From Geosiphon pyriformis (Eukaryota; Glomeromycota; Glomeromycetes; Archaeosporales; Geosiphonaceae), in the NCBI GenBank assembly GCA_016748015.1, contig JAAOMT010000721.1:11280-43956 (forward strand): a DNA stretch of 32,677 nt, given 5' to 3'. Made by a program: the position numbers and the translations under genes. This document shows positions 5,373-31,872 of this stretch, piece by piece. Under the pieces are notes generated by a model. It worked only from the letters and a program-made list of their open reading frames with translations, did no database searches and was not told where the DNA came from. Positions within the stretch are counted from its first letter, which is position 1; each line of letters opens with the position of its first letter.

Positions 5373-6946
5373 TCAGCCTCCTCTATTCTTTGATTTCTTC
5401 ATCATATAGCCAAAGTAAGGGCCATTATGTGGTCCGATATCACTCGGAGGACGATTTTCATTTTTTAAAACCGGCTTGAATGTTGTATATTGAGCATTGC
5501 ATGACTTTGAACATTGAAAAAATGATAAATAATTATTATTAACTTTTGAAATATATTTTGCATTTATAAAACTAAATGTAAAATGAGAAAAAAGAAAAAC
5601 CTGATTTTCAAGGAATGTGTCGCCTACAGTGCATCGATATACTTCTGGAAAAAAGCTTAATGTACGTGGTTTTGATGAGAGACATTCGCATGATGCCTCT
5701 TTTTTTATCCAATATTCAGTTCTCAAATGACGATAACCAAACTTTGTCGATGGAAATGAAGTTCTTACATCATCGGAATGTGTCACACGATAAACGGTAA
5801 TTTTGGAATCAGCATAAATTGCTAAATTTTCATCTCCCATTCGTGGCTGTCCAAAGGTCACCACGACTGGTCGTTTAGCAAATATTCCATCTGCAAAAAG
5901 CGCGGACAAAACTGCAAAACCTATTTTGTATGCCAAAAAAAAACTCCTTTCATTGTTAGATTAATTATGAGAATACACTCATTAAATTCATTAAATAGAA
6001 AGATCCTCACCACCACCAATGTCAAATCCAATAAATCTAATTTTTGGCAAAATAGTCTCATTTGACAAGAAATTTTCTCCCCATTCCATTAATTTAGCAA
6101 AAAGATCTTGCACAAGAGATATTGTCCATTCTTTGTGATAAAAATGATCAATCATTCCAGCATTAGGGATGTGATTTGTGATCAATTTGTTTTGCCTCTT
6201 TTGCCAATTTTCTAACCTATCCACTGAGTTTTTAAAAACAACAATTATCTCAGCGGCTCGGTTTGTTGATGTTGACCTTATATAAAGAAACTGAACTAAT
6301 TTTTTTTATAAAGAGACCAGATTTTTAAAATTTTACAAAAAAGATTTTGTCAAAATTCAGAATTTCTTTGTTATTTACCCCAAATATTCCCCATCAATCG
6401 GGTGTGGTGACCATCTTTAACTCCAAAGTCTTCTAGATAAGATGCACTTCGAGCAAGAAATGAAAGTAAATTTAAGTTGGTAACTCGTTCTATTGTTTCA
6501 GGAATTTCTTCGGTAGCTTCTCTCTTTGGAATTTTTTTTTCTAGTTTCTTCCAAAAATTTTGAATTTCCGGTCTAGAGATATTATATTTGCAATGAAACT
6601 TGATTTCGGTAAATAAAGAAACATTGTTTGTTCTATTGTGATCGAGATTTCTTATTTGATTTGAAAAATTCGAAATATTTAAGCATTGATTCCTCTTGAA
6701 GTTTTTCTGGACAAAATAATTAATTTTTACAGTCGAGGTCAGGCTAAAGCAAAAAATAGTTAAATAAAAAAAGGCCAGAGCTAAAAATATCTTTGGATAT
6801 ATTGGCTTTTTAATCCAAAAGACTAAAAAAACAGGGGTTTTGAAATCTTGTGAAGGTGGCAATTTCAAGGTTTGTTTCAAAACATTTTGAATCATGTTAA
6901 ACCTAAGTATTCTCTTTGCATTAATACAGATGTATATAATACTCAT
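5373..6946 (-). CDS. L1: class 3 lipase-like protein, catalytic Ser replaced by Asp
   Basis: Proposed exons are 6946-6379, 6295-6011, 5920-5601 and 5504-5373, giving 434 aa with phases 1, 1, 0 closing exactly. The fold is the class 3 (fungal triacylglycerol lipase) alpha/beta hydrolase. A hydrophobic segment at about residues 53-70 suggests a membrane anchor. ATG 6895 (Met18) is an alternative start that would place the anchor nearer the N-terminus, as in the paralogues. The nucleophile elbow reads G279-F-D281-I-G-G, so the serine of GxSxG is Asp. The strand motif VVVTFGQPRMGD, the Asp at 335 (RVTHSDDV) and His417 (PHNGPYFG) are present. The conserved CxC and VYRC cysteines suggest disulfides on the lumenal or outer side. 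It is probably a non-catalytic paralogue. The last intron is 96 nt, stop-free and in frame. Confidence 0.82.
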
Positions 6947-8715
6947 AAAATGAAATTGGACTCTGTTTAATTAATTTCCAAAATCATTTCTTTACTTTTC
7001 GGTTATCCATCTGATCTTTAGATTCAAAGCTGGAATTTAGTTATGTGGATCTGCTTGAACTTTTTGTTTGATCTTGGGTAATATTTAAATGATCTTTATT
7101 TGATTGAAAGATCATATTTTTGGGGTTTTGTCTATTAATGAGCCAATATTTTGAAAATACGAGCCCTTAGGATACCGTATTACTATGATGAATATTATTT
7201 TTAATTAGATTAGAATAAAGAAAATTTTTAAAATAAAATAAAATTATAAGAGAGAATGAGTTTGATAGTTTAGTTTTAAAAATAAAATTATAAACTGAAA
7301 TAATAAACTAAAAGGTCAATCTCAAGCAAAGTATATTCTCCATAACAGTATTCTTAACTCATATTACTCATTCGTTAAGCATCACAAAGCTTCTTATTTA
7401 TCATATAGCCATTTTTGATGGGAAAACTTGAATCTAAAGTCCACACTACGTTATAATTTCATCTTAAATATTTGTATATATTATATAATTTTTTTAATTG
7501 AGAAGTAGTAATTATGCTTTTTGAATTATATCTGGTAGCAAGTGCCCAAAAATAATTCATCTGCTTCAAAATACATGTCCAAAAAAGATATCAGTTCTTG
7601 AAAATCTTAATCTTGTTGAGCGATCGCAATTTCAAATTAAAAAATTTAGTAATTAAATTAAATCATATTTTGATATCAGTTGTGAGATTTAGGCAAAACT
7701 TAAGAATATATTCGCTTACACAATAAAGATTTCTCGGGGATACATAAATTAATTTAGGAACAATATTTATATCAAGATTTTAAATATGATGTGTGCATCT
7801 TTGTCAATTAAAAATATTATTCCAGATCAGTTATTATACTCTGATATCGCCGTAGCAGCAAGTGCTTTGCTAACCGTTTCATGATAGTAAGTTGTTCTGT
7901 AAATTAACATATATATTTTATTCTCCGTGTGAGCCTATCGATAAACGATAAAGGAAAATTGACAGAGAAAAAATTTCTTCTGACAGTAATCAAATGATTA
8001 GGCTTTGAAGAAAATTTATTTTTAAAGGAGGAAAATATAAAACATTTATCTTGCCAGACTATCTTGAAATAAATACCTCCAATTGGTAAATTTACTGGAT
8101 TAAAAGGTGGGAGGAAACAAAGACCCAAGTGATCAAATTTGAAATAAAAAAAATTAATCTAGTCGTCACTGATATTCAACGGGAAATGAAAAAATAAGAT
8201 TAACCGTGTGAGTAAAGATATAGCTAAATTTCCAAACCTTTATTTTTAACGACAAACATTGAAAAAATTTACAATGGGCAAAAATCCAAAAATTTTGACT
8301 GGAATCAAGTTATGTTTTCAGATTTCACTTGAACCAATCAAGATTAAAAGTTTGGAAGTTTATTGAATGAAACACCACCCATTAATTAAAATTAATGTAT
8401 GGGAATTTTTTTTCAGCTTCAGGCTTTGGTAAACTAATTCGATTCTAACACATTCTAAATACTGATTTTGTAATTACAATATACAAACAAGATCTAGTTT
8501 TTAGGAACAATTCTATAAAGTGGATTTTGTAAAAAAAAATAATGATCTAAAATATTTTTCGAAAAAAGTGGCTCATTGGAAGGAGGAAAATGTTAATATT
8601 ATTTCATACCATCAATTCACCTTTCCAAAATTCGATTGAGAATAATAAAAATTAATGTAGTGAAAAAAATTAAAACTCTTACAGGATTAAAAGTGCAATG
8701 AGCAAAAGAAGGGAA
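6947..8715. other. Spacer upstream of L1; presumed promoter region
   Basis: No gene is supported. The minus-strand ORF at 7904-8128 has no recognisable motif, and a 31-codon ATG frame at 8274 is too short to judge. The first 250 bp should hold the L1 promoter, including the shared CCAAT-type motif at 7137-7157. Confidence 0.45.
7137..7157 (-). promoter_or_regulatory. CCAAT-type motif upstream of L1, shared with the P450
   Basis: The plus strand reads AATGAGCCAATATTTTGAAA here and again at 18230-18251, with one extra T in the second copy. This copy lies 191-211 bp upstream of the L1 start codon. The other lies 257-278 bp upstream of the P450 start codon, in the same orientation relative to transcription. 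The core contains CCAAT on the plus strand (ATTGG in gene orientation), the known binding core of the fungal HAP/NF-Y complex. A regulatory role is inference. Confidence 0.4.
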
Positions 8716-8718
8716 TCT

Positions 8719-8797
8719 TTTGCCTAATGAGCTGCTGCAAATCTTGTTCCTAGTATAAAAAATTGAGTTAAGGAATTAATTAAAGTTAGTAGGATTA
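8719..8797. repeat. Diverged dispersed repeat, copy B
   Basis: This is the partner of 4109-4190. In the forward frame it reads EGNLLPNELLQILFLV then a stop, faintly like the start of an F-box. It lies 1.8 kb beyond the 3' end of L2. The similarity to copy A is visible by eye but imperfect. Confidence 0.35.
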
Positions 8798-8809
8798 ACA
8801 GTTCATCAT

Positions 8810-8900
8810 CACTATAGACTGAAAGTCACAGCATACCGAAAATTAACCAAACAGTCCCACGATTGTAGACTAAGATTACTATAGACTAACAGTTACAGCT
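8810..8900. repeat. Short imperfect direct repeat
   Basis: ACTATAGACTGAAAGTCACAGC at 8811-8832 recurs as an ACTATAGACTAACAGTTACAGC variant at 8878-8899, about 67 bp apart. No function is apparent. Confidence 0.5.
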
Positions 8901-10600
8901 TTCATCCAAATCAATTAGACAATTAACAATTAAATGAATGACAGAACATGTTTATGTACTAGGTTAAAATTATTTTTTTTATTTAATTCTACCACAAAAG
9001 TAAATAACTATACTTATTAAACAATTTACACAGTTATAGAATGGATTATTAAAATTAATCATTGTAATATTTTTTGGTTGATTATTATAATTTTGCTTAT
9101 TTATAATATTAATTAATATATTTAGATTATTAATTTTATATTAAAATGTATTTTTTTTATAAAATTTTTATCTTATTTTTAATTGTTAATTTCAATTTCA
9201 AAATAGAATATATAAAAAATATGAAAATATACTCTATTTTTAATAATATATTTATAACAGCTGTATTATTTTAATAATCATTATAATTTATTTCTTAATC
9301 TTTAGATTTCTTTTAAAAAAAATTAGCAATTGTAATTTCAAGAATAATTACATTAATTAAATTAAATTTATATACTTTTTTTTTGTTATCATATTTTTCA
9401 AATTTATAACAATATTATTAATTAGTAAAAATTATAAAAGGCTAAAAACTGATCCACTTATTGCTACATAATTTGTACTACGAAAAATAATTCTCAAAAA
9501 AATGAACAGTAAAAAAATTTCTCAATGAATTTGGTATTTGTCTTTTCTCTTATTTGATCAATTGTAAACAAATATTTATTTAAAGACTTTAAAGCTATTT
9601 TTTTGTTAGTAAAATGTTTTTTTTAGATTTATATTCAGAAAAAATTTAAATAAATTTAACCAAAACATGGTTAATTCAAGTTTAGAATCACAAAAAATTA
9701 TAATTTTAGCATTTTTTGGTTATAAGAATTAATTTTTATAATATAATTTTAATAAGCAGTAAAATATTTTTTAAATTCTATATATAAAATTGCTTTTACA
9801 AATTTATAAGTTAAAACTAAAATATTTTAAATTACATCAATTTAAAAATTCTTTAATATTAACTCTTTTTAATAACAATTTCAGAAATTAACTTTCAAAA
9901 ATAGCTACCTATTAATTTTGAACATTCGTGAGTATGATTATCAATATCAAAATCTTGAAACTGATAGGGTTTGTTAGTTTACTAATTATTAATAAAATGA
10001 GAAATCAAAAATATAATAAAGGAGTAAAATAACATATTTTAAGAGTAATTGAAAAATTACAGAATAAAATCATTAAGGAATTAAATTTAAGCCAAAAGAA
10101 AGAAATGAATTATTTATAAGATGTTTCATATAAAACAAGAAAAAATTAGCACTAGTAAATTGATTCAGCAGTTAGTTAACTATTTTTTGTTTATAAAACT
10201 TTCCAAAACATTTGCAGTAAATGTTTTTTGATCAAAAACAAAATAAATAAGAAAAGAAATAAAATATTAATTTAATAAACATGTAGAAAAAAATGTTGGA
10301 TAGTATTTTGTATTTCAAATTCTCTCACTTTTGAAAATTAAATCACTTAAATTCAGCTTTATTTATCCTCTAGTCAGTTTTAATTGAACAAAATCGGTTT
10401 AATTTAATTCAAATTAAGCTAACAGTACCACCGAAATTGGCTTGACCAAATCTTTTGATCATATGAATCAAAGAAGTCGCATATATTTAATGTCAATCAC
10501 GATCTTTGAAATCTATTTAATATTACCCCAAAAATTATTGATGGATATAGCTTAAGATTTTTTTTTGAAATAATATATTTTACAGTTGATGGGGAAGCCT
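8901..10600. other. AT-rich spacer downstream of L2
   Basis: I see no supported gene. The region is dominated by A/T with many homopolymer runs, especially 9050-9900. Confidence 0.5.
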
Positions 10601-10603
10601 ATT

Positions 10604-12154
10604 CTATGAACAATCATTTATATTCACTCCAAAATATGGTCCAGAATGTATAAAATTCAATGGTACCTGATCGATTGATTGTCCAGCATTGCACTCCTTT
10701 ATTTATTTATTATTCGTATTAAAAAAATTCAAGATTAAAAAACCTCATTGGACAAAATCTTCAGAATAATCTACCAACCAGATTTTCTCCGGAAATCCCA
10801 GCGTTGGGGAATAATGATCTATCCGAAATTTCAATTTGTCGCCATGATCTAGAATTATAATCAAAACCTGGACATTCCCATATCTCTACTTCTCCCCCCT
10901 CCTCCTGAGGACAGTCACATGGTAACAGACTCATCCAAAATTCCAATTCGTGGTGTCCTAAAATATAATTTCCTGTTTCAGGATTAGGAAAATGTGGGAC
11001 GTGATCATTGGTATGTGTCACACGTTTAACGTCTAGCCATTGATTAATTAATTTGGCAAAAACTACGTTTCCGATTCGAGGAGCGCCGAACGTTACCGCT
11101 TCTACATCAAAATAAGAGAATTTGAAGCTGCTGATCAAGCTTTTTTCATCTTTTAAGTAAGATTCGATTTTCCATGTAAGAGCGGCAAATGTTGCATATG
11201 CTATTGGGGAATGTATAATAGAAAAATTTTCTAAATATTAATAAAATTTTGGAAATGATATTTTACACACTTACCACCACCTACACCCCATCCTGTGAAG
11301 CAAATTTTGGAAAATTCTTCTAACCCTCTTTCTTTGAGATTATGTTCAATATCATGAAAAAGAGAGGTTTTTATTGAAAGGAAATCATTTTGCCATTCCT
11401 GATCCACAAGAATTAATTGATTGGGCCTTAGGTCATTTATTTCAAACGTTACGAAATTTGGGCGTCGATTTGCCCATTCAAATTTCGTCAATGCTACCCC
11501 TAAAAAATTTTATATTAAGCTAATATATTTGGATGAGTCTTTTGATTTTGAAGATTTAAAAAAAAAAAAGAATTACCTGAGAAAGCAATAATTAATGCTC
11601 TTGAAAATTTTTCGTTTATCATATTAACTATATAAAATTGATCATGCTAAAGAGTTTCGAATATTAAATATCCACAAATTAAATATCTCTTCTGGTAAAT
11701 TATAATATATGGCACCTCTGATTTGATGTCTACTCAGCGGAGCATCTTTTTTGCAAAAACTACGGTTGCATAAAATAGCCATGTTAGCAGTTTCTGTAAT
11801 AAATTCTCCGTAATTGTCGTTATCCAATCGCTTTTTCGACGAATATTGAAATGAACGTGAGAGTATATCAGTTTCCCAGGTCGAATTAAATTTATCAGAG
11901 GTTGCATTTATTCTATGGAATGAACTTTTATTTGTTGATTCTAACCGCCAAGTATTAATCGTACCAGGCGAAAGCAACCTTGTGAATGTTGAAGAATGCA
12001 AGACATTATTAAAGATCCAAAAAAAAGCTACAAGTGCCCAGATAATAATACAGATTATCGAGTGAAAAAAAGGTTTGTAAGAGTGAAGGAAAAAAGCTAT
12101 AATCGAGATTTGTGCCATGAAAATTGCTGTGAGACTTTTCAAGCCGAAGTTCAA
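10604..12154 (-). CDS. L2: class 3 lipase-like protein, catalytic Ser replaced by Gly
   Basis: Proposed exons are 12154-11716, 11627-11577, 11499-11275, 11200-10779 and 10696-10604, giving 409 aa with phases 1, 1, 1, 0. Residues about 31-50 form a strongly hydrophobic membrane segment. The elbow reads G233-W-G235-V-G-G-A, so the catalytic serine is Gly. The AVTFGAPRIGN motif, Asp304 (THTNDHVPHFP) and His396 in IHSGPYFG are present. The donor after the elbow is a perfect GTAAGT. L2 has one intron more than its paralogues, placed within the strand before the oxyanion region (AFS|G), and its first intron (GTGCCA donor) is the least certain. An alternative acceptor at CTTTAG just upstream would add a few residues. 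The cysteine spacing near 330-350 differs from the other copies. Confidence 0.75.
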
Positions 12155-12199
12155 TTATATTGCGTGAGGGATAAAAATTCCCTATGATGAAGTAATGAT

Positions 12200-13300: not shown

Positions 13301-13372
13301 TTAGTTTATGATTAAATCTTTTCAATATTTTCAGTATTTTTGAATATTTGTACAAACCGAAGATATTCTTAC

Positions 13373-13572: not shown

Positions 13573-13990
13573 TAATTATTTAAATAATAATGATAATAAT
13601 AATAAATGGCATTACAACTACTATAATTCGAATTTTAAATTTCTAGTTATTAAATATTTATATTGAATATTAATTTTTATTACTAACGCTTTGCCATTGA
13701 AATTCTTTTTAAATGATATGTAAAACAGCTATACAATTCTTTTTCCCGTTTTAATATCATTTTATATATGCGTTCAAGAAATTAACATTATTACTAATAA
13801 AATGTGAAAAATAAAGCTATTAAAACTCTCAAAATGTTTCAACATAGATTTCTTACTATGAAGGCACTTGTAAAAAAGTTATTCGAATAATCTCAATTGT
13901 CTTTTTCTATCGAAAATTCAGGTCTGACCTCGTTAAATTTTTCATATTCTGAAGAAGCCTATTTATTTCTTGTATGTCTTGTTATTATAA

Positions 13991-14136
13991 TACGACAGGG
14001 TGAAATCTGAGATAACAAGTAGTAAAACCTGCGATGATCAGCCATGTAATGTAAAACCTGCGATAGATAGGATAGATTGGGTAAAACCTGCGATAGATTA
14101 GTAAAAACCTGTAAACCCCGTGATTGTATCAAGTGA
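13991..14136 (+). repeat. Left terminal inverted repeat
   Basis: It holds GTAAAACCTGCGAT at 14022, 14051 and 14081, with a degenerate copy near 14101. It ends in the segment GTAAACCCCGTGATTGTATC, which is mirrored in the right terminus. Confidence 0.85.
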
Positions 14137-14211
14137 GAAAATGAAATATATAAAATGTGTAAAGAAGGTAAAGGTACATTATTTTTACTACCATAACATT
14201 ATCACTAATAG

Positions 14212-15104
14212 GCGATTATGCTTTGTCTACTAGCTCTTTTGAAACAAAAAAGGCCATTTGGCGCCCATTATTGCCAACTATTCGATGCATACAAGTGCCA
14301 CTTATACAAGTACCCTCAGTGTTAGACTTATATATGTTTGATACGGTATCCCTAGGAGGTGGTAGTCTTAGTAACGGCTATAAAATTCTAGATCATGACT
14401 GTATGCATAAGAAGTGGGTAAGAGATTATTATTTATATGAATTATAGTTCTATACAATAGTATTTTATTGAATATTAAGGTACGTGAAGGAGATGTAAAA
14501 GCCATTACACTTGTAAATGAAGATGCAAACAAAAATTCAAATTCAAAGTTGGCATACGTAGAATATCTTGGATGTTCCAATAGGGTATAAAATAAAGAAT
14601 AATTTCTAATCAAAATTAAAAAGTATTAACTTTATCTTTATTTATAGAATGGGTGATACCGTATCAAAAAGACAAATCGACCAGCGACTGCCTCTGATCC
14701 TTGTCATCAATGTTACGGGAATTAGCACCATTAATGAAAAGACGTCTCTTCAGAACAAAGATTTACCAGAAGAAATCAATTTTCCTAAAGGAAATCAAAT
14801 TACAAAACAAAGGTAAATTTGAATTAAGTTTATCACTTACTCTATTTATTTATTAATTTTTTAATATAGATATCGCCTGATGGGAGTTTCTTTTTGTAAC
14901 GACATCCATCATATTGCCGATGTTCGTTTCGAAAATTTTAAAAATTCTGGCTGGTATCAATACGATGGGTTGCAAAAAACCTACAAAGCAAGGGCAATGG
15001 CAATTGGAAGTCGCGTCCTCCTCCCAAAAGTGGTTATACAATGGATTTTGTCATCTATGGAAAGATTTGAGTTTTTTGCAATAAAAACTGATCGTTATAT
15101 GTAA
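14212..15104 (+). pseudogene. Transposon-borne gene with a ubiquitin-peptidase-like C-terminal half
   Basis: Exon-like blocks are 14212-14417, 14480-14584, 14648-14812 and 14870-15104 (stop). The donors GTAAGA and GTAAAT and the acceptors are good. Blocks 1-2 and 3-4 join in frame, but blocks 2 and 3 do not: the only usable donor leaves phase 0 while block 3 needs one completing base. That indicates a frameshift or a misread junction. The last two blocks read LPLILVINVTG, then YRLMGVSFCNDIHHIADV, then WYQYDGL. This order resembles the C-terminal His-box half of C19-type ubiquitin peptidases, in which YxL..V, GHYxA and W.xxxD recur. Comparable peptidase-like modules are known in fungal transposons. 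No start codon is evident before 14212, so the gene is probably 5'-truncated. Confidence 0.5.
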
Positions 15105-15422
15105 TAAAGAAGGATCTCTATTTTTAAGCTTACCTGTTTCAATAATAACAGTATTACTTGTTTGAATTTTCCATTCAAAGTTGTGTCACTTAGTTTGGTC
15201 AACTTTACAGCACTTTCAATTGGGTCTACTCTCAAAATGTGCCGTTGTTCTTAAAAACTGATTGCTATATGTAATAAAGAAGGACCTCTATTTTTAAGCT
15301 TACCTGTCTCAGTAATAACAGTATTACTCGTTTGAATTTTCCATTCAAAGTTGTGCCACTTAGTTTGGTCGACTTTACAGTACCTTCAATTGGGTCTGCC
15401 GTCAAAAGGGGTCGTTGTTCTT
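15083..15422 (-). repeat. 170-bp tandem duplication containing an exon-like unit
   Basis: Two adjacent copies with a period of exactly 170 bp run from about 15083 to 15422. On the minus strand each copy contains an open stretch of about 38 codons that starts EQR and passes through DPIE, TKLS and TTLNGKF. Each ends CAG at a GTAAGC donor and is preceded by an acceptor-like TTTTTAAG. The two units differ at about a dozen residues. This may be a duplicated exon of a gene antisense to the peptidase-like gene, or simply a structural repeat of the transposon. Confidence 0.55.
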
Positions 15423-15447
15423 AAAAAATGTCTATTTATCGCAGATT

Positions 15448-15581
15448 TCACTTGATACAATCACGGGGTTTACATGTTTTTACCCTATTGCAGGTTTTAC
15501 TAATCTATCGCAGGTTTTACATTACATGGCTGATAATCGCAGGTTTTTACTATTTGTAATCTCAGATTTCACCCTGTCGTA
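15448..15581 (-). repeat. Right terminal inverted repeat
   Basis: It is the inverted counterpart of 13991-14136. On the plus strand it reads towards ATCTCAGATTTCACCCTGTC at its outer end, with inverted GTAAAACCTGC-type units inside. Confidence 0.85.
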
Positions 15582-15859
15582 TTATAATTATGAATTTTTG
15601 AAATTGCAAAAGTTTTAAATTTTAGATTAATATACACGTATATAAACAGTAAAAGGAATTAGATTATAAATAGCTCAACTTGTCACAAACTGGGATTCTT
15701 AAAGATGTTTTATGAAGTATTACTTGCTAAACTGAATTTATTCGTTGGAAAACTTTATTCTCTCGAAAATTCAGAAAACCTATTAAAATGTTAAATTTAA
15801 ATTGTATTGAAAATTATAAATAAAATGACAATAAATGTCTCGTGAGAAAAATTTTGCTT

Positions 15860-17973
15860 TTAAATTTGGTCTTGAGAAATTTTGTTTGATAGCATAGTCT
15901 CAATACTGGGGTGTCTTGGAATGAAACGAACAAAATAGGGTTTAGGAAATTGGAATATAGACCCGGGAGAAGTACTCATGTCAATAGGAATAGATTTTCC
16001 ATTTGAATCTTGATTTGCATTTTCAATTTTGAAAGCTGAAAGTAGCATGCTTGAGATATAGAGTAGTTCGAGTTCAGCCTGTACAGAGTTTTTAACAAGA
16101 AAAAAAAATTAGATATTCATTCCAAAATCTCTAACTGACCATTGAAACTTACTAAATAAATTCCGGTACATGTTCTTCTTCCAACTGAAAATGTATAATG
16201 GTCTCGAGTTTTATAGGAACCTTTTGCCGAAATGGCAAAACTTTCTTTTGAACCCATAAATCGCTCTGGATTGAAAATATCGGGATTTTCGTATCGATTC
16301 TTGTCTGAGTTTAGAGCGTAAATATTCAAAACAATTCTTGAATTTTTTGGAATTTGATATCCCATATATGTATCATCTTGTTCAAGATATCTAAAGACGG
16401 TTCGGACCTAGAAAAAATAGAGGTATTATTTATTAATTTTTGAAAAAAGCACAGCATTAAGCAATATTAAAAGAATGTTTCAGAACTGCAGGAGCCCAAC
16501 GAAGAGTTTCTTTAATGATTGATTGTATATATGGAAGGGAACTAAAGTCGGAAGTTGTTGGTAAACGTTTATCTCCAACCACTCTGTCTAATTCTTCATG
16601 AGCCTTTAGTTGAAACTCTGGATTGTTGACCAAATTCGCAATGAGCCAATTTGTGCTATTTGCCACAGTTTCCTGTTAGATATATAAATAAAATAATCGT
16701 TAATGCACAATCGTTTTTTTCACAAAATAAATTAGATTAATATAAAAAAATGTAATTTTTAACGTACTGTTCCTGCCATTAAGAAAAGTTCACACATTTT
16801 AACCACATCTAATTCATCCATTAACCCTTCATCCTGCTTCGTCAAAAAATCTCGAGCAACACATGGCTTCTTTTCCGGATCATTTTTTACCCTTTTCAAC
16901 AAGTCTCGCGTTACTGTTTCCCATTCTTCACGTAATTTAAGAGTTTTTAAATATTCCTTTCGAAAGGGAGGAAATGAATATAGAAATGGATACAAATTTG
17001 CAAAAATTATTTTGATTGACACAAATGAAAAGGCTGTTTCAAAGAATTGGACTAGCTGTTTATAAAGGGGATCTTGTAAATTTTCAAATTTAATTCCAAA
17101 CATAAGATTTACAATAATATTAAATGATGTGAAACGGAGGTAATGAGAAGGATCGATTCCTTCTGATTTTTTAGTATCCTTTAAAATCATCAAGACTAGG
17201 TTGTGGGTGCATTCTGCTACAAGACTAGAGTAAGATTCGACTTTTCGTTGATTTAAAAACCCGTGTGCTTTTGAAGGTGAAAAGGGAAATTAAAAAAAAT
17301 AACTCTGAAAGATATTATTATTGAGGAGAAATAAAAGTAAAAAAAAAATTGCTTCCTAACCTAACGGCGTCATTTTTCTATACCATTCATTATAAGGTGA
17401 AGAAGCAAAACTCTTATTGCGGTCCAAAAGGTTACCCAAATAACGTTTTGGTTGCGAAGAATAAATCGCACCTCCTATTAATCGATAAAATGATTAATTT
17501 CGAAATAGTTTTAAACTTTGGATAAAAAAAAAAGAAGAGTTACGTTTTAAGAGAAGGTCGTCGACGGCTTGAGCCTTATTGAGGATAACCCAACGCATAG
17601 GGCCAAAATAAATCATGAATATGTCACCATACGTTTCCCTCCATTCAACAAATCTGTAAATAATAATTAATGTTTATTAACAAAATGAATGATTTCAACA
17701 TTTAATTCGAATAAATATGAAATTAAAAAATGACGCAAACTTTTCTGCCATATTATTTCTCAGCAAAAAAAAGTGTCCTAATCGAAATTTAAAAAAATAG
17801 TCAAAAATTTTCTATAAAGAAAAAAAACCAACCAAAAATTTTTTTTTACCAAAAAACGGAATTGCGCCTGGTGGCACAGGCAACTGCGTTCCATCATATT
17901 TTTTTGCTTTCGAAGATTTGATATTATAAAAGTAAAGTGCGAAAATTAAGGCGATAATGTATAATAAAGCCAT
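15860..17973 (-). CDS. Cytochrome P450 monooxygenase, microsomal (E-class)
   Basis: Proposed exons are 17973-17850, 17777-17741, 17653-17544, 17474-17361, 17267-16768, 16672-16487, 16407-16153 and 16078-15860. They give 514 aa, the usual length, and every phase closes. The N-terminus has an ER anchor (MALLYIIALIFALYFY) followed by a Pro-rich hinge (LPVPPG). The I-helix oxygen-binding motif is A-G-T-E296-T-V, the K-helix ExxR is E350-T-L-R353, and PERF is present as NPERF. The heme loop is FSVGRRTCTG with Cys437 as the thiolate ligand. The expected product is an NADPH-P450-reductase-dependent hydroxylase, with substrate unknown. Three donors start GTT, and exon 2 is only 37 nt. The expected C-helix WxxxR appears as WYRKM, so its Arg is displaced. 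It sits between L2 and L3 on the same strand. Confidence 0.92.
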
Positions 17974-18229
17974 AGTAAACTCTAATATTCAAAATCTCTT
18001 ATAGATTTTAAATGAAAAGTAACATTTCTATTTTTTAGGACACTATTTATACGAAGTCGATGAATATCCATTCTACATGGAATATTTACATCATTAGGGT
18101 TTTTTTGATTCGATTATTAAGCTATTTTCACTATATTAAACTATTATCAAATAGTTTTATATAAACAGAGCTAAAAAAAAAAAAAATTCTCTAACAAATG
18201 GCGTAATATATAATAAATTTGGGAATTTC

Positions 18230-18251
18230 AATGAGCCAATATTTTTGAAAA
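18230..18251 (-). promoter_or_regulatory. CCAAT-type motif upstream of the P450, shared with L1
   Basis: This is the second copy of the AATGAGCCAATATTTT-GAAA block seen at 7137-7157, differing by one T in the run. It lies 257-278 bp upstream of the P450 start codon in the same orientation relative to the gene. Confidence 0.4.
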
Positions 18252-18501
18252 AAGCTTTAAGCAAAGCATGTGATATAAAATGCTAATGATTACAAACAGA
18301 AACTGTTTTTCAATCAATGAATCTATTACCAAAGAGATTCGCTAATCAACTCAGAGTTTTTTAAATTTGACAAGCTCATTAGTTTATAAGGAAAAAATGA
18401 GAGATTATATTTTCCCATCTATAATGTATCGTGTTTCCTTGTAGAAATCAACTTTTACCAAGTTAAAGATGATTTAAAATACATAAGACTTATAAAATTT
18501 T

Positions 18502-18502
<1 letters not shown>

Positions 18503-18534
<32 letters not shown>
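18503..18534. repeat. (AAT)n microsatellite
   Basis: About ten uninterrupted AAT/ATA units in intergenic DNA. Confidence 0.9.
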
Positions 18535-18535
<1 letters not shown>

Positions 18536-19796
18536 GTGTCAAATTGATTTATATACAATTAGTGAGGTTTTATTTATTATATCACATTATTATAAAATTA
18601 CTTTAAAAATGGCAATTAATGAGACATATTTAAATTTCTTCGCCTAGCTTTAGTAACATCTAAAAACTTTTATCTATCATCAAAAATCCAGTATTTATTT
18701 GTATTGGAAACAAATCAAAATTTATTTACTTTCTATCAACAAGAAATTACAAATGATCCGAAAATTCCCTAAATCTTTATTTTATTGCTTCTTCTTTTTC
18801 GTTTGAACTAAAAAACATAAAGATTTATCTAACCTCAATTTGTAGAAAGTTATAAATTGATAAGGAAAAATAAGGTTACATTATCTCTTAATCCTCTAAT
18901 ATTCATAAAGGGAAATTTCAAAAGTCAATAGACAAACTTACACTACCCCAAAATTATGATCCAAGTCTCATTAATAATCCAGTAATGAAAAAGCAATAGA
19001 ATAGAACTTTGAGGTTATAATGGTAAAAAGTTATGCCCAAATACCTTAAGAAAAAGGAAATCAGTTCGTCTATCTTATCTTCTAAAGGAATCTTGTTTAT
19101 TTTTCTAATAAACTAAGATCTCACGATATTTTAAATATGTTCCATTTTAGAAGGTGCCCAATCCAATCATGCGAAAAAAGTTGATTTTGATATTTAGTGT
19201 TTAATTTGTTTATGGTATGATGCGAAAAACAAAATTTTTTTTTGTCACTCGGAGACTATTAAAGCCTGTTTTTTTTTATACTGATTTTTAAGATATTGAT
19301 AACCCATCTTCCCAAAATTCAATAAATGGAATTTAAATTGTAATTAACACATCTCTTGCGTAACTAGAGTTAGGGAAAAGAGAATTATGAGGCATGGAAT
19401 TTCACTCGCCCCAGTATTAACATATTTTTCAGCTGAAAATGTTTATATTAATTGAATAAAGTACTCTTGAAAAGATTTTACTTATAATTCTGAAATAGAT
19501 TAAAACATGATATATTAAAAACTAAATAAAAATTGGTTCTTATTAATTTATAAAACATGTAAATATAATCAGTTTTAAGTATATATTTATTTTTATTTTT
19601 TAAGTAAATCTTAATATATAAAATTTATATTTTTGTGAATTTCAATCATTAATAATTTGTGTGATTTAATTTTTCAAATATTAAAAGCAAAATAATTTAT
19701 AAAATTAATTGTTATAAAAAAACTTCAACATAAGTGATTTTAATTATTTTAAAAAATTTATATTTTTTAACTTTATGTAATTTCATGATTAAATAA

Positions 19797-19800
<4 letters not shown>

Positions 19801-19830
<30 letters not shown>
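19801..19830. repeat. (AT)n microsatellite
   Basis: Fifteen consecutive AT units inside extremely AT-rich DNA. Confidence 0.9.
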
Positions 19831-19834
<4 letters not shown>

Positions 19835-20296
19835 TTATGAATTCATTATACATTAATATTTTAAAATTTTCTAATGAAAATATTTTTTGAACAGTTATTT
19901 ATCAATGACATTAAGAACATATTTTTATTTAAAAAGAAATAAATACAATCAATATTTATTTTAAATAAAAATAAAATGAAAAAAATAATATTCAAAAATC
20001 TTAAAATTAATTAATTTATTAATAAATAGAATTGAATAAATATTTTGATTTCAATTTTAAATGCATTAACGTTATCAAATAAGTAAAAAATAAATATTTA
20101 AAAGTAATTTTCAAGCCTTGTTTTAAAATAATTTTAAAAATAAAAAAAAAATTCAATATTTGTGCTATTAAAGAATCTTTCAAAATTTCTAAAGTTTAAA
20201 TTTAACTTTTTCCACATTCAAAATTTTAAAGGCAATATTATTTTTTTCATTTTATTTCGATTTTATCATAACTCGAACTAAATTTTTAAGAAAATT

Positions 20297-21617
20297 TTAA
20301 TTAGGGCAAAGACCCATATAATAACCAAAATAGGGTCCACTATGATAATGATTATCGGCCATATATTGGGGTACATTAACTTGTCTATGAAATTGGGCAT
20401 TGCAAAGCTGTTTTTTGTAAGAGTATAGATTAAACAATAAAATTTTAATAAAATACTTAATTTAAAATTTTTTGATTTGGAACAAAAAAAGCTAACCTTA
20501 TTCAAATCTTTAGTTCCTCGTTGCTCACACTTATATACCTCTGGGAAAGAACGTTTTGCAACTGGATCGTCAACAAAACATTCACATTGATTTTGTTGTG
20601 GTATCCAATATTCTGTTGAAAGAGGCCAATACTCTGGAACATTTAGCGGAAAACCGGGAACGTAGTCTTTACCATAGGTTACACGATAAAGTCTTACATT
20701 CAGATACACCTCATATGCAAAATAAAAATCGCCCATTTTTGGTTGCCCGAATGTAACGACAATTGGTTTTTGTTTATATTTTTTTGCATAAGCTAGACCG
20801 GCAAAGACAGCTTGAACTAGAAAAACAGAAATTTAAATTCTTAAGTATTTTCTATAATAAAAAAATTTTTTAAAATATTTGAACTTTTACCTCCTGCAAT
20901 TCCAAAGCCAGTAAATTCAAAATAACATTTTTTCCCGGGAATTCCCATTTTTGGATTTTGGCTATGAATATCATAAACTTTTTGCCAAAATGTTTTGAAT
21001 TTGTTTAAGTGTAATCTCAGCCAGACATCATGATACTCTTTATCAACTCCGGCAAACATATTACCCCGAAATGGAACTAATGTATGGATTTTGCCTTCAT
21101 AATGTTCCGGAGTGTTGAAATAAACAATTCGTGTTTCCGGCTCCTTTTTTTTTCGTTTCTCGGCTTTTATTACAAATTTTGCTATTTCAGAAAATCAAAA
21201 TGTGATTTCATCAATAATTGGACAATATTCGAGTCATCGATTTCTAAATACATATTGGGTACCATAAAGATCCGTCACAAATTTATCTTCTTTTGAATCT
21301 AAACATGCTGCATAATAAGCATAAAATGCATGTTGAGCGAGAAGAGCAAGCTCTTCTTCATCGGTCACACGAACTTTGAGATTTGTATCAAAATTTCTTG
21401 AATTTAACGCGTATGTTTTGTTAAATCTCTGTGTAAAGTTTTCATTAGAAATAAGGATTTTATTTCGTTCATGAAGATATTTTGGTTTTGATCTTGAAAA
21501 GTTTGAATCTGAAAAAAACCTAAAAGCCTCTCGAAACAAAAGCAAGTTCAGAAAAACGAGACAAAAAAAAAGTTTAAAACTTAATTTCTCGCTTTTAAAA
21601 AGTCTCAGAGTTTGCAT
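20297..21617 (-). CDS. L3: class 3 lipase-like protein, degenerate nucleophile elbow
   Basis: Proposed exons are 21617-21263, 21181-20891, 20816-20497 and 20407-20297, giving 358 aa with phases 1, 1, 0. A membrane segment lies near residues 14-29. The elbow reads G210-F-G212-I-A214-G-V, so both the catalytic Ser and the final Gly of GxSxG are changed. Retained are VVTFGQPKMGD, Asp266 (YGKDYVPGFP), His344 in HYHSGPYFG, and the cysteines of CEC, VYKC and the C-terminal LC. It keeps PFRGN, close to the family's FRG oxyanion-side motif, better than its paralogues do. The third exon has exactly the same length as that of L1 (320 nt). Non-catalytic binding or scaffolding is the likeliest role. A serine-independent activity cannot be excluded. 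Confidence 0.85.
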
Positions 21618-21649
21618 TGTTTTTTTTTTTTAAGTGGTTGAATACAATC

Positions 21650-24785: not shown

Positions 24786-24791
24786 AGGCTA

Positions 24792-26184
24792 CTAAGGTGA
24801 GTCAATCTCTTGTACGGGTTTTTCTTCTACCAGGCTCAAAAAGATCATTTCCAAAGTATCATAAGGGTTATTGTCACATTGTCCCATCTTGTAACCGAAA
24901 TATGGTCCAAAATGTATTCTATTGGGGACGAAACTATCTTTAACTTTTTTTAAAGACTTTGAATGAAATTGGGCATTGCATTTCTAAAATAAATAAAATA
25001 AAATGAGAATTAAGTTTTTTTAAAATGAAAATTCCTATACAATAACCAGCTAGCACCGACCGTGTTCAATTCTTTTGTACCCTTTTGTTCGCACATGTAA
25101 ACCTTAGGAAACTTTCCAATTGAAGGGTTACAATCACATGAGTTGTCATCTGGAATCCAAAATTCTGTTGGCAAAGGCCAATACTCATTATTTAAAGGAA
25201 AAGCGGGAACATTATCATCTGCATAGGTGACTCGATAAAGTTTTAATTGAGTGGACACAAGATCTGCAAATAGGCTGTTACTCATTTTTGGTTGGCCAAA
25301 AGTGACTACAACTGGAATCTTCCTGTATCTTTTCCCGTAAGATAGAGCCGCAAATATAGCAAAAACTTTGAAAATTTTTTTATAGCGAAATTTTTAAAAA
25401 AGTTAAAAATAAACGAGAAAATAATTCAAATAGATTTACCTCCACCTTCTCCAAATCCAGTAAACACAAAATAACAATGAGTTGACAATTTATAAAGAGG
25501 ATTCATTCTATGAAATTTTTCAAAGGTTGTTTGAACAAGTTTACGTGGGTTTCTTAGAGCGTTGGACCAGCGTGCATAGTGATCTTTATCAACTTTCATC
25601 CCTTTAGTACCGGGACCACCAGGATATTCTTCTAATATGACAGAGGGATTTTTTTTTATTTTACGTGCATCAAAAAAGAAGACGCGTGTTGGAGGTAGAT
25701 TTAGGGTGGGAGGGCTTAAAATAGTTATTATGCCCACTAAAATTTTATTTAAAAGACAGAATTTTTGAATAAATTGGCTGGATTTATTTTGAAGGAGAAA
25801 GATATTTTTCACCCCACCCCCCAAAAAAGAATTCTTACTGAATAAATTCCTTGAAATTTGATCTTCATTCTTAAGACAAGACCCTTTTTTGGAGATATAA
25901 GCCAAAAGAGAAAGAGTTTTCAATTCATTTTCATTCGTGATAAGAATCTTGGAAGGTGATTCTGATCTTTTGAAAAAAACTTTATGATTCTGGTCATGAC
26001 TAAAGCTTTTTAGGATCAATTGATCAAGATTAGAAGTTGCTAGTTTGAAAGAATTTTTTGGAATTATATCTGTTAAAAGAATAGATGGAATATTTTTTAC
26101 TAAAGATTTAATTTTCAATATGAGAAATAATATTGTTGTCAATATTATGAGTGATGAAAACACCAGTCTATACCAAAAATTCAT
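24792..26184 (-). CDS. L4: class 3 lipase-like protein, catalytic Ser replaced by Gly
   Basis: Proposed exons are 26184-25839, 25736-25440, 25365-25061 and 24983-24792, giving 379 aa with phases 1, 1, 0. A membrane segment lies at residues 6-23. The elbow reads G209-F-G211-E-G-G-V, so Ser is Gly and an acidic residue follows it. VVVTFGQPKMSN, Asp265 (YADDNVPAFP), His340 (IHFGPYFG) and the cysteines CDC, VYMC and KCNAQ are kept. The C-terminus extends about 25 residues beyond the GPYFG block, longer than in the paralogues. The first intron (102 nt, donor GTAAGA) is stop-free and in frame. The last intron uses an unusual GTCGGT donor, supported by alignment to the other copies. Confidence 0.82.
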
Positions 26185-26189
26185 TATTT

Positions 26190-28200
26190 TTCAATAAAAT
26201 CTAACAGACTTTCAACTTTAGAAAGTTTCAAACATTTATTTATTTAATATTTACAATATAGATAATTTCAAAGAAGTGTGAATTTATAATTTTTTATTCT
26301 TATTCATTTTTTCATTAGGGGGAGCTATTAAAAAAAATTGTATATTTCAAATATTTCTTAAAACGTACGATTGAAAAAAAAATAAAAAACAAAGAGAATC
26401 TATAGCTCTACCCCCCTTTTTCACACCCCTTGTATGATAGATCTTCCGATCAGTTCTTGAGTTTTGATTTAATTGTTAGTTAGGAGTTTTTTGTTTGGCA
26501 CCATATGAAATAAAATTTCTTTAGGGATAAATGATATGATTGAATCTTTTTGGAAACAATGTCATTTTTTAATTTATATCTTTTACCAAATTATAACAGG
26601 ATTTGAAAATAACAAAAGGATTATAAAAAATACAAAAGAAGATAAAATATCATATTATTATTATAATTAGATAATATTAACAAATTTGCAAGCGATATTA
26701 ATCTAGGTCAAAAAAACAAAAATCCATCTTTGGGGTTAAATTCGGGAAAAATAATTTAAAAAAGATAAAAATCTTCAAGAAAAACAAACAAATAGAAAAA
26801 CCTGTGTTCTCAATGGGAAAATCTTCTTTCAGCCAGAAAGATAAAAAGAAGTGATAAGAGACATGAGAAATTATTTTTTCAGATTTTATTAATAAAATTA
26901 ATAAACACTATCAGAAAATGATTCTCGGACTAAAATAATTGGAGAAGCCAAAAACTTAATAAAACAAGACTAATTACAAGATTTTATTCTTTTCACCCCT
27001 TATTATTCTGGAAAATCGATAAGAATTATATTTTGTAATGTGAATTTACAGAAATTTATTATATAATTTTGTCATACTATTATTATATTAAATGAGCATA
27101 ATTCATAATGCATAATGCATAATGCATAATTTTGATAATCAAAATAGTGTTTGAAAATATTTTTTGAAATCTATTGAATCAAAAAAAGAAGAATAAACTT
27201 CATTCTTAATTCTAATGTAAATTTTTTTCAAAATAAAAAAACAAATGGAAAAATCTTTTTTATTTCATATGAGTAATTCATAGTAATCTGTGGAAAAAAA
27301 AAATGAACGCTTAAACTAAAAAAAAAATTTATTCCTTTTTTGTTGAAACTAGAAATCCGAAATATACTTTAAGATTTCTTTGAAAGCAACCCGATAAGTT
27401 TAAAAACTTGTTTCGGAAACCAAAACATGCATAATGATATCAACGAATGCAATTCAGCAACGGATTTATATGAGCATAAATATTTTTTCTTAAATTTTTC
27501 AAACAAGCTCTTTTTAATCATATGATCACTTCCAAGGTCAAACTTTATTAATTTCATCTAATGAAACGCATAAGATTTGATGAAGCACTCAAAAACGTAT
27601 GTATGAGATGTATGTGCTAGCAAAAATTTATGTTTAAATAGTAAACAAAGCCCTCTGAAAGGGAGAGAGTGAGCTTTAAAGGACAAAGAAATGAAAATGA
27701 AAATTAAATTAAATTGTTCTTGTTAGTATCTTTTTTTTTTTTCATAATTATCTATTACCTTTTGATGGATTTTCATATTTTAAATAAATAACCCATATGA
27801 AATTACTCAAAAGATTCCCTTTTTTAAAAACAAAGAAATATCAAAACGTGGCCATGATCAAAAAATATTATACCAAGACAAGAATTTATGCACGAAATAA
27901 ATTGATTGAAAATTTTTGCCATGTTTTGATCGATGTTTCCCTCCGCGTTCCTACTATTTTAGGTAATGATCGGTGTTTGGAAACAAAAGCCTTTCCATTG
28001 ACATGCTAGCATGGAGTGCATTTACGCCCGGCTTTTTTCATGCATCACAGGATCAACTATTATCTTTTGAAAAATGGAAAAACATTCATCATCATCTGAA
28101 ATAGTTATATCATCTATCAGTGATTGACCTTATATTTCCAATTCTTGATTAGGAAGAGGCGTAAATAAAGCATGATGTAACCAAAATATCTTTAATATTC
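26190..28200. other. Spacer upstream of L4 with weak ORFs
   Basis: Two ATG-initiated frames have less biased composition than noise: minus 27369-27557 (62 aa, rich in K, L and F) and plus 27797-28009 (70 aa, basic). Neither shows a known motif, splice partner or homologue that I recognise, so neither is called as a gene. A 12-bp palindrome CATGCTAGCATG lies at 28002-28013. Confidence 0.35.
27104..27130. repeat. Heptamer tandem repeat (CATAATG, almost four copies)
   Basis: CATAATG occurs three times in tandem, followed by CATAAT. Confidence 0.9.
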
Positions 28201-28211
28201 ACATGATTATG

Positions 28212-28388
28212 TTAGAAACAATTGATTTGATTCCTTTTGTCTATGGTTTTTGGTTTCTCAGAGCTGTTTATCATTCGGGAATCGAATGCGGCCATGCTAT
28301 TAGAAATTTGTGGATCATGGGAGATGGGAGTAGGAAATATATCGCCAACTATTTCGGTCAACCTAAAAGAAATTAAATATATATACAT
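28212..28388 (-). CDS. Small unidentified ORF, 58 aa
   Basis: The minus strand is open from an ATG at 28388 to a TAA at 28212. From about 28363 downwards the composition looks coding (PTPISHDPQ, then MAAFDSRMINSSEKPK), and a TTTCTTTTAG acceptor-like site just before suggests it may be an internal or terminal exon rather than a complete gene. The plus strand is also open over the same bases and runs into a 28-nt poly(A). It lies head-to-head with the membrane-protein gene at 28478. No family was recognised. Confidence 0.3.
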   Translation of the reverse strand: MYIYLISFRLTEIVGDIFPTPISHDPQISNSMAAFDSRMINSSEKPKTIDKRNQINCF

Positions 28389-28400
28389 AATATCTTTGTC

Positions 28401-28428
<28 letters not shown>
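28401..28428 (+). repeat. 28-nt poly(A) tract
   Basis: An uninterrupted run of 28 A lies about 50 bp upstream of the start codon at 28478. It may be a promoter-proximal dA:dT tract or the tail of an old retro-insertion. No flanking duplication was found. Confidence 0.85.
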
Positions 28429-28431
<3 letters not shown>

Positions 28432-28477
28432 TAATTGAAAATACAAAAATTCCTTTTGACACAACAATTTAACTAAA

Positions 28478-28997
28478 ATGTCTTTGAAAACCGCATTGAT
28501 TGTCGGATTTGTGAGTACTGCTGGTGTAGTTGGTGGAATACATTATATTATTGAAAAAGTCAAGAAATCTGGCCGAAAGAACAAAATTGCCGCAGTGACG
28601 ACGACGAAAGAAGAGGTATGCAATAATAATAATAATAATAATAATGATATTAAGTTTTTATGAACAAAAAATGATAAAAATCCTTTTATATATTCAGACA
28701 CGAATATTCGAACCTAAACCACAGACATATCTCGAAAAACCAATCATCAACACCCCACTAAAACAAACGAAACCCGGAAAATCGGAAAAGTTGCCAAAAT
28801 CAAAAAATGAAAAGAAAAAATTTTCAAACGAAATTCCACAAAAACCATTCCCAGCAACTTTATATAAAAACAATCAACCTTGGTGGGAATCTAAATCAAA
28901 AAATGAAATTGAAGGTAAAGTTTCTGCGCAAAGGCAACCAAAAAAACCACATCGCGTTAACACCAACGAACGAATTGCGTGGCGCCTTGATTTATAA
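28478..28997 (+). CDS. Small single-pass membrane protein, function unknown
   Basis: Two exons, 28478-28615 and 28698-28997, join in phase 0 with a GTATGC donor and a TTATATATTCAG acceptor, giving 145 aa. Residues about 5-25 form one Gly/Val/Ile-rich membrane helix, followed by the basic stretch KVKKSGRKNK. The rest is Lys/Pro-rich and probably disordered, ending in a more conserved-looking tail with NQPWWESKSK and RIAWRLDL. The arrangement (short N-terminal helix plus basic soluble tail) would suit a mitochondrial inner-membrane or ER tail-in protein, but I do not recognise the family. The intron carries an AAT microsatellite at about 28621-28646. The gene converges on L5, whose stop lies 475 bp away. 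Confidence 0.65.
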
Positions 28998-28999
28998 AT

Positions 29000-29470
29000 T
29001 CGATTTAATTTATCTCCTGACACATTAACCGAGCAGATATTAGATTTGAATTATTTTGGTTTTTTGAGAAAAATTTGTAGATATTTCATGAACATTTTTC
29101 AAAGATCGAAAGTGGTTTAAAACGGTTTTTCATTTTGTAATAATATTTTGGTAAAACAATTGTTCACTTTTCCTACATATTTTTGTATATAATTTCAAAG
29201 TGTTGGTTAGCTAAAGTATCTTGAAATGAAAAAATAGATTTCCTGTATAAAAATGATGTATTTTCTGAAAAAAAAAATTTTATAGAAAAATTTTTCCAAG
29301 TTGAATTTGAAAATTGAGGTTTTTTAAAACATTGATTACTTTGAATATTTTTTTTAAATTAACAGTTTCTAAAATCAATTTCTATTTTTTCCTAACCATA
29401 TTTAAAAACCCTTCCGAATTTGATTTTTTGGATGTATTTGATAATCTTAGTGAAATGGGGTTCATTAGAT
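29000..29470. other. Convergent intergenic region between the 28478 gene and L5
   Basis: It holds the 3' regions of two convergent genes. AT-rich, with no ORF or repeat worth calling. Confidence 0.5.
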
Positions 29471-29471
29471 T

Positions 29472-30873
29472 TTAATTGATATCTGGACATTTTCCCATTA
29501 AATAACCAAAATATGGGCCAATGTGAACTTTTTCCCGATCTTTCATTTCTTTAAAATTTCTTGGTACTTGACTAATAAATCGTCCACTGCACCTCTTTGT
29601 GAAAACAAATAATTATTAATTGTTTATCATTTAAAAAATTTTAAATTTTTAAATAATAAATAAAGAATTTACCTTATTAAGATCTTGATAGAATGACTGA
29701 TAGCATTTATAAACTTTAGTTTCTTTGCAATCACAATCATCTTCCATTATCCAATATTCAGTCTTTAATGGATAAAACTCTTGAGTATCACTATTCTTGG
29801 GTAAGAATGGAATAATATCATTTTTATAGGTGACTCTGTATGAATTGACTCTTTCTGCCGTATAAATCGCAAAATATTTGTTTCCAATTCGTGGAAGACC
29901 AAATGTCACTACAGTTGGTCGTATTTTAAAGCGAGCTTCAAATGCCAATGCTGCAAATACTGCGTAAACTGATGGAGAAAATTATGTATTCAAAATAAAC
30001 TCTTTTTTTTTTTTTTTTTTAGAAAAATTCCTATGCTCCGAAAAATTAAATATTCACTCACCACCACCAATGCTAAACCCAACAAAAACAAATTTAGGCA
30101 TTTGCCGCTTAAGATCATTCCCAGCAACTGAGGGTGATGATGATAATAATCCAAGACCTCGTTCAAAAACAGGCAAAAAAAGTTGCCAAAATTTTTGTCT
30201 GCCCGTATTCCATTTTTTTAAGAATATACTATCTACTAAAAGGTCAGGCCAGTTTCGCCAACTGACTAGAATACTTTTCCTTAATTCCCATCCATTTAAA
30301 AAAATTTCTGTGGCTTTAAAATAAGAATAAATTCTAGTTGTTTTATGTTCTGATAATGCTTCTATTTGACCCATTGTAGTTGAGTGTACTTCTGGCTGGT
30401 ATATTTCAACGTTAGCTTGAATTTTAAAATATTTTAAACCTTTAGAATTTTACTTTTCAAATTTACTCATTTCAATTATATGCGTTACCATAGAGATGAA
30501 TCGTTAATCGTTCCGTTCTTTCCAAACAAGCGGCTTTGAATGCGTAAGATGCTGCTGTTTTCAAAATTTCTAATTCCGCTGGTTTGGTAACTAAAAGTTT
30601 AGACCCTTGTTCTCTTTTTAATATACGAGTAGCTTGTGAAATAAAAGAATTTTTTGAATAATTTCTTTGAAATTCATAAAGTGATTTCACCCTAAAACTG
30701 TTTTCCAAATAGTTTCCTACAGATGAATTGATTTCAATATTTGAAAAAAATTTTTCACTCTGTTCATATGATAAAAATGTTTTACAGAGTGAAATTATAT
30801 GAAAAAAAATCAACGCTATTGAGAAAAAAATGAAAGGAGTGGTAAAAGCTCTTGAAAGTTGAAATAGTAGCAT
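29472..30873 (-). CDS. L5: class 3 lipase-like protein with intact Ser-Asp-His triad
   Basis: Proposed exons are 30873-30489, 30439-30062, 29968-29673 and 29594-29472, giving 393 aa with phases 1, 1, 0. A membrane segment lies at residues about 13-31. The elbow is G249-F-S251-I-G253-G, a true GxSxG. Asp305 (YKNDIIPFLP) and His377 (VHIGPYFG) complete the triad, and TVVTFGLPRIGN precedes the Asp. Expected chemistry is hydrolysis of ester bonds in acylglycerols or other lipids, at a membrane and on the lumenal or outer side given the CDC and VYKC cysteines. This is the only member of the array predicted to be active. The first intron is just 49 nt. An in-frame ATG at 30374 inside exon 2 is not needed for the model. 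Confidence 0.86.

Positions 30874-31299: not shown

Positions 31300-31301
<2 letters not shown>

Positions 31302-31382: not shown

Positions 31383-31384
<2 letters not shown>

Positions 31385-31870: not shown

Positions 31871-31872
<2 letters not shown>

Follow-up and report, generated by a model that had tools for sequence, protein, structure and literature searches.

Five lipase-like genes (L1–L5; Table 1) lie on the minus strand of a 32,677-nucleotide stretch of Geosiphon pyriformis contig JAAOMT010000721.1, hereafter the window, and they appear to belong to a family of Rhizomucor-type class 3 lipase homologues that has expanded to a very large size in this fungal genome, with glycine in most sampled members at the position of the catalytic serine. 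The first-pass annotation had stated that four of the five genes lost the serine of the nucleophile elbow, and locating the codons bore this out: the residue is Asp in L1, Gly in L2, L3, and L4, and Ser only in L5. Its intact reading frames were likewise confirmed (all five genes splice open, to 358–417 amino acids), as were the catalytic Asp and His codons, present in all five, and the membrane anchor, found as an N-terminal hydrophobic segment in each gene (best 19-residue Kyte-Doolittle mean 1.72–2.54). The cysteines, said to be kept, are so in part: those of the C-terminal half are present in all five genes, apart from the last one in L1.

The reading that we consider best, and hold with somewhat better than even confidence, is that these are pseudo-lipases, either anchored or secreted, whose ligands are lipids or other molecules. 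In most members Gly has replaced the nucleophilic Ser and the usual FRG[ST] and VHxGF motifs are gone, with the domain core, the Asp-His pair, and several cysteines held fixed. The resulting proteins would lack ester hydrolysis by the serine mechanism and would enter the secretory pathway, form disulfide bonds, and end up anchored or secreted, a placement suggested by the N-terminal hydrophobic segments of the window genes and the conserved cysteines. The old lipase pocket would be re-used for ligand binding, and the simplest ligands would be acyl lipids that are taken up by a fungus with no domain of type I fatty-acid synthase (FAS I) detected. The choice of acyl lipids as the simplest ligand follows from the lack of detectable FAS I: Fas_alpha_ACP had no match in the genome, in a search whose control, one bacterium, matched only below the cut-off. 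Excerpts of two papers report arbuscular mycorrhizal fungi to be without FAS (PMC12574304, PMC11426481), from which we guessed at a Glomeromycotina-like fungus.

Nucleophile census and conserved residues

A search of the 124.7-Mb assembly that contains the window for Lipase_3 (PF01764) returned 748 candidates, and scoring 150 of them gave at least 163 matches. From these surroundings we sampled 85 distinct family genes (loci L001–L058 plus the window), a non-random set made up of the window, the eight best Pfam loci, the top 30 loci for L5, and 20 tiles picked for dense matches. Counting elbow residues, as had been proposed in the first-pass annotation, was possible for 82 of the 85 genes, all of the same genome, and gave Gly 62, Ser 15, Asp 3, Cys 1, and Ala 1. 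The three genes without a resolved elbow were left out of the counts, as were gapped rows; one of the three reads GFAVSG by eye, that is, Ala, and C372:117770 is cut by the edge of its locus. A readable elbow exon was found in 82 of the 85 genes (donor GT in 80, GC in two) and a third exon also in 82, although the finding of stop-free exon pieces was partly built into the search.

The same picture extends over the whole assembly. Patterns that join the elbow to its splice donor, covering Gly, Ser(AGY), and Ser(TCN), matched 322 Gly sites (five in a reversed control), 57 Ser(AGY) sites (two), and seven Ser(TCN) sites (three). Within the fetched letters, 37 of 38 Gly matches and 11 of 11 Ser matches fell at modelled elbows, and of the elbows already known, the patterns caught 37 of 62 with Gly and 11 of 15 with Ser. 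Ser makes up 15/82 of the sample and 64/386 of the pattern sites genome-wide, and a rough extrapolation would put the family at no fewer than 500 Gly genes and about 75 Ser genes. Many of the copies are clustered. The loss of Ser is not peculiar to the cluster in the window and is a genome-wide pattern; the cluster is a mixed neighborhood whose four-in-five ratio mirrors the genome.

Asp stands at the nucleophile position in three genes on separate branches (C370:2247865, GHDIG; C393:595949, GHDEG; and L1, window 6021–6023, GFDIG), and Cys in one (C301:186644, GHCVG). GHD is a motif of epoxide hydrolases and fluoroacetate dehalogenases. The locus L006 (C368:383251–383685) holds another class 3 lipase gene, separate and more divergent, which reads GHSLGA and FKGT and is absent from the family exon matches.

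The other two members of the triad have been retained to a high degree. The catalytic Asp is present in all 67 Ser-less genes and in 82 of 82 resolved genes, and the catalytic His in 61 of 65 Ser-less genes and 75 of 79 overall, the other four having Asn; one gene outside the His count has a His without the usual following Gly, and one unresolved gene has Tyr. Four cysteine columns are 91%–100% conserved in the Ser-less genes, one of them in 61 of 61. One Arg, one Pro, and the Glu of an EYW motif are each fixed in 67 of 67. By comparison, two other lipase motifs have eroded: the oxyanion-loop motif [RK]G[ST] remains in four of 14 scoreable Ser genes and one of 62 scoreable Ser-less genes (six of the 82 could not be scored), and the lid-side VHxGF in four of 15 Ser genes and none of the 67 without Ser. 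The description of a selectively lost nucleophile was accordingly too strong. The whole lipase signature (FRGT, VHxGF, GHSLGG) survives in four of the 82 genes, C298, C362, C380, and C401, which are likely to be the true lipases of the sample.

The nucleophile elbow is a strained turn, in which Gly fits best. Asn and Gly are both one transition away from AGY, and the count of 62 Gly against no Asn fits a fold constraint at this turn; Gly is probably favored there because the turn is strained. All 15 elbow serines use AGY codons, which would suit regain from GGY or plain inheritance equally, and we do not lean on it.

Retention of Asp and His without Ser, together with Asp elbows that occur on three separate branches and one branch with a Cys elbow, would also be expected if the proteins were still enzymes, in which an Asp-His dyad and a Gly, Asp, or Cys elbow carry out non-nucleophilic or altered-nucleophile chemistry of an acid-base lyase or oxygenase-like kind. 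Asp elbows occur in dehalogenases and epoxide hydrolases, and a Cys elbow in dienelactone hydrolase. We think this improbable, as the Gly found in 62 of the 67 Ser-less genes offers no side chain, [RK]G[ST] is missing from 61 of the 62 in which it could be scored, and Asp and His are conserved no more than the neighboring, non-catalytic Arg, Pro, and Glu.

The family is closest, on profile comparison, to the Rhizomucor-type class 3 lipases. Lipase_3 was found in nine of nine scanned members (E 0.01 or better), and in these nine part-length sequences Pfam gave no domain besides hydrolase-fold ones. A nine-sequence family profile, built from three canonical and six other members, matched PDB entries 6a0w (2.2e-41) and 4tgl (4.9e-41, which we take to be the Rhizomucor miehei lipase) with elbow, Asp, and His aligned; L5 alone had its best PDB match in 1dt3 (3.3e-8). 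The match runs over most of the domain, and the order elbow, Asp, His, and C-terminal YFG..G.C is shared, as is the full signature in the four genes named above. Unlike those lipases, most sampled members have Gly at the nucleophile position, no FRG[ST], usually VD for VH, HxGPYFG at the catalytic His, and conserved extra cysteines; the five window genes carry their N-terminal hydrophobic segment.

The plant proteins EDS1, PAD4, and SAG101 have a class 3 lipase fold that works without hydrolysis; they are intracellular and carry an EP domain. The first-pass annotation had cited EDS1/PAD4 as precedent, and it stands as a distant analogy: these proteins are not close kin, PAD4 (4e-8) and EDS1 (2e-7) ranking far below the fungal lipases (~1e-41) against the family profile, and they differ further from the many copies in a fungal genome seen here. 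Dipteran yolk proteins, of the pancreatic-type family, animal and encoded by few genes, resemble the present family in retaining a lipase fold minus its nucleophile.

History of the catalytic serine

A careful tree of 82 genes, unrooted, with the catalytic column masked and its bootstrap not quite settled, requires at least 11 changes between Ser and non-Ser; seven of these are forced by branches with good support. Its end branches have a median length of 0.64 changes per column. L2 falls in an all-Gly clade of nine, separate from the clade that holds L1, L3, L4, and L5. The claim that the genes are tandem therefore needs qualification: the five do follow one another on the minus strand from 30873 to 5373, but they come from two clades, share 24%–37% pairwise identity, and have both a P450 gene and an element with inverted repeats lying between L2 and L3.

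The direction of change was read from a quick tree rooted on two Rhizomucor-type lipases, with the root state fixed as Ser and three forced changes. On this tree a two-state model that allows regain is better than a loss-only model by 8.5 log units, a loss-only history would require 28 losses, and the probability of Ser at the last fork before L5 is 0.04. With the moderate support that one quick tree gives, the ancestor of the L1/L3/L4/L5 clade was probably Ser-less already, and the Ser of L5 was probably regained. This argues against the idea that L1–L4 each lost a Ser that L5 retains, since on the outgroup-rooted tree the clade was without it before it split. Loss of Ser looks old and shared among family members.

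The Ser of L5 is not by itself enough, to judge from the other motifs, to make L5 an active lipase. FRG[ST] and VHxGF occur in none of the five window genes, and L5 has Ser only, with FKATE and VDSIF where the other lipase motifs would stand.

Selection, decay, and possible functions

The first-pass annotation had named a ratio of nonsynonymous to synonymous substitution rates (dN/dS) near 1 with frequent stops in Ser-less orthologues as a result that would refute maintained pseudoenzymes. Pooled over five Ser-less paralogues from C254 and C328, dN/dS is 0.60 (0.44–0.82), with none of 500 bootstraps reaching 1; including the stop-bearing copy C254:41197 gives 0.58 (0.43–0.77). By exon the values are 0.59, 0.49, and 0.81 for exons 1–3, the last with an upper bound of 1.50. 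A pair on C227 gives 0.51. Canonical Ser pairs have lower ratios (0.12 and 0.29), an unfair yardstick given their high dS (2.90 and 1.39). It would seem that the family has been constrained over longer times and is fast evolving, with some copies lost.

Several observations weigh against maintained, ligand-binding pseudo-lipases. The four youngest Ser-less copies have a dN/dS of 0.74 (0.50–1.11, with 1 reached or passed in 42 of 500 bootstraps), and single pairs of the C254/C328 clade reach 0.82–0.88 within a close-pair range of 0.43–0.88. The elbow exon of a sixth, Ser-less member of the same clade, at C254:41197–41457 (plus strand, L033), contains an in-frame stop, which makes it the only clearly broken copy seen in the sample; in C370:2259767 and C283:713296 a stop or an extra intron breaks up the elbow exon. 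The family is mixed, with Ser in 15 of 82 genes, four of them resembling full lipases. Asp and His are among the 23 of 214 columns that are at least 90% conserved in Ser-less genes, and their retention may be structural. The link to lipids comes from the fold and from a single absence test that lacked a positive control from a eukaryote.

Some of these points are what one would expect of a birth-and-death family largely in decay, with many copies dying and open frames a sign of youth: the bounds of the four youngest copies include 1, one elbow exon has a stop and two others are interrupted, and C370:2200881 yields no more than a short match to the second exon (E 7e-07). The broken copy C254:41197 led us to raise the odds of decay slightly and to lower those of binding pseudo-lipases slightly. 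Decay nevertheless seems very unlikely, given the near-complete recovery of elbow and third exons in the sample and the long end branches of the careful tree, and drift at the nucleophile position would not converge on Gly. Pseudoenzymes maintained rather than simply decaying find partial support, at the level of the family, from Gly in 62 of 67 Ser-less genes, Asp in 67 of 67, His in 61 of 65, and the pooled ratio; the earlier claim to this effect is weakened for the four youngest copies and by the one sampled Ser-less copy with an elbow-exon stop.

The several hundred copies, many of them clustered, and the dN/dS of close Ser-less pairs of one clade invite another explanation, in which a diversifying surface or secreted repertoire serves in recognition, adhesion, or other host- or microbe-facing roles, with the lipase fold as scaffold and a ligand that is not a lipid. 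The elbow exon, which has few conserved columns beyond the elbow itself, would fit, as would the N-terminal hydrophobic segments and conserved cysteines. Such a repertoire would have no need to keep the pocket Asp and His, and the pooled exon point estimates are all at or below 1, so we regard it as a possible but rather unlikely account. Binding pseudo-lipases remain our preferred reading. A more specific version, in which a digestive lipase of a lipid-dependent fungus gave rise to several hundred Ser-less proteins, secreted or anchored and either lipid binding or catalytic through the Asp-His dyad, with many switches between Gly and Ser, is one that we put forward tentatively and think doubtful as a whole. 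If it were true, the several-hundred-member repertoire would represent a pseudoenzyme radiation of very large size and could serve in the capture of host lipids; should the proteins bind lipids in a fungus that lacks a fatty-acid synthase of its own, the family would supply candidates for lipid uptake.

Counts of Lipase_3 serve to infer the fat-digesting capacity of early-diverging fungi, and they can mislead, since 322 of the 386 pattern-found elbows of this genome (about five-sixths) have no nucleophile; counting most members of this family as fat-digesting enzymes would probably be wrong. Large Lipase_3 numbers in early-diverging fungi are familiar from the Entomophthorales, for which parts of one account give 348 in Entomophthora muscae and 190 and 132 in two relatives, interpret the expansions as lipases used on host tissue, and mention no check of catalytic residues (eLife 2024, PMC11105155). 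The same account counts trypsins in that group, whereas our genome search found no trypsin match; an origin in the Entomophthorales was disfavored on this ground, the present genome being probably of another lineage. For Glomeromycotina an excerpt gives a mean of 189 lipases, classes not split (PMC12574304). In the portions seen of the open-licence literature, no Ser-less class 3 lipase family in fungi appeared among the matches listed. The many paralogues, with one catalytic residue swapped repeatedly and its Asp and His partners kept, amount to a natural experiment and make the purpose of the remaining triad residues testable.

Window genes and genome setting

Table 1. Lipase-like genes of the window (window positions; elbow, Asp, and His entries are codons)
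Gene	Span	Strand	Exons	Length (aa)	Elbow	Asp	His
L1	5373..6895	minus	6895-6379, 6295-6011, 5920-5601, 5504-5373 (four)	417	GFDIG, Asp GAC 6021-6023	5769-5771	5427-5429
L2	10604..12118	minus	12118-11716, 11627-11577, 11499-11275, 11200-10779, 10696-10604 (five)	397	GWGVG, Gly GGT 11285-11287		
L3	20297..21617	minus	21617-21263, 21181-20891, 20816-20497, 20407-20297 (four)	358	GFGIA, Gly GGA 20901-20903		
L4	24792..26184	minus	26184-25839, 25736-25440, 25365-25061, 24983-24792 (four)	379	GFGEG, Gly GGA 25450-25452		
L5	29472..30873	minus	30873-30489, 30415-30062, 29968-29673, 29594-29472 (four)	385	GFSIG, Ser AGC 30072-30074	29817-29819	29523-29525

The gene models come from six-frame translation and splicing by hand, with junctions chosen manually; all 16 introns so chosen are GT-AG, and none of the five spliced frames has an internal stop. 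Two junctions are uncertain, the first donor of L2 being weak (GTGCCA) and two donors being possible at the end of exon 1 of L4. Hand-spliced parts of L5 and L1 matched Lipase_3 with 60.1 bits (E 2.8e-16) and 34.9 bits (E 1.7e-8), respectively, against a curated cut-off of 22 bits.

Alternative splicing that restores Ser was considered and rejected. The elbow codon lies 10–12 nucleotides inside its exon in L1–L5, and a profile of the elbow exon, started with X at the catalytic position and carrying the letters of its matches in later rounds, gave five matches in the window, one per gene. The adjacent phase-1 donor recurs across the sampled family, so that splicing does not explain the change of residue.

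Between L2 and L3 lie a cytochrome P450 gene (window 15860–17988, minus strand; PF00067 at 2e-56 for a 320-amino-acid hand-joined part) and an element of about 1.6 kb (13984–15588) that looks like a DNA transposon. The element has imperfect terminal inverted repeats containing GTAAAACCTGCGATAGAT units, with arms 95%–100% complementary, as well as two direct repeats of 170 bp and frame pieces on the plus strand that, joined by hand, gave a product without a Pfam match. A small two-exon gene between L4 and L5 (28478–28997, plus strand) encodes a hand-joined product of 145 amino acids with a hydrophobic N terminus and, again, no Pfam match.

Two strong matches to the N-terminal domain of chitin synthase (Chitin_synth_1N, 8e-29), which is not known outside fungi, mark the genome as fungal. 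A nematode origin was considered and rejected on this match and because no SL1 was found and Col_cuticle_N had no match, though the control of the latter also matched nowhere. The Hint domain had one match in the genome (33.6 bits, cut-off 29.7); expanded Hint domains are to be expected in arbuscular mycorrhizal fungi according to part of one report (PMC8778642). The window is AT-rich, and its 2-kb bins 2001–4000, 8001–10000, 18001–20000, and 30001–32000 have 17%–21% G+C, being partly filled by long AT and trinucleotide runs.

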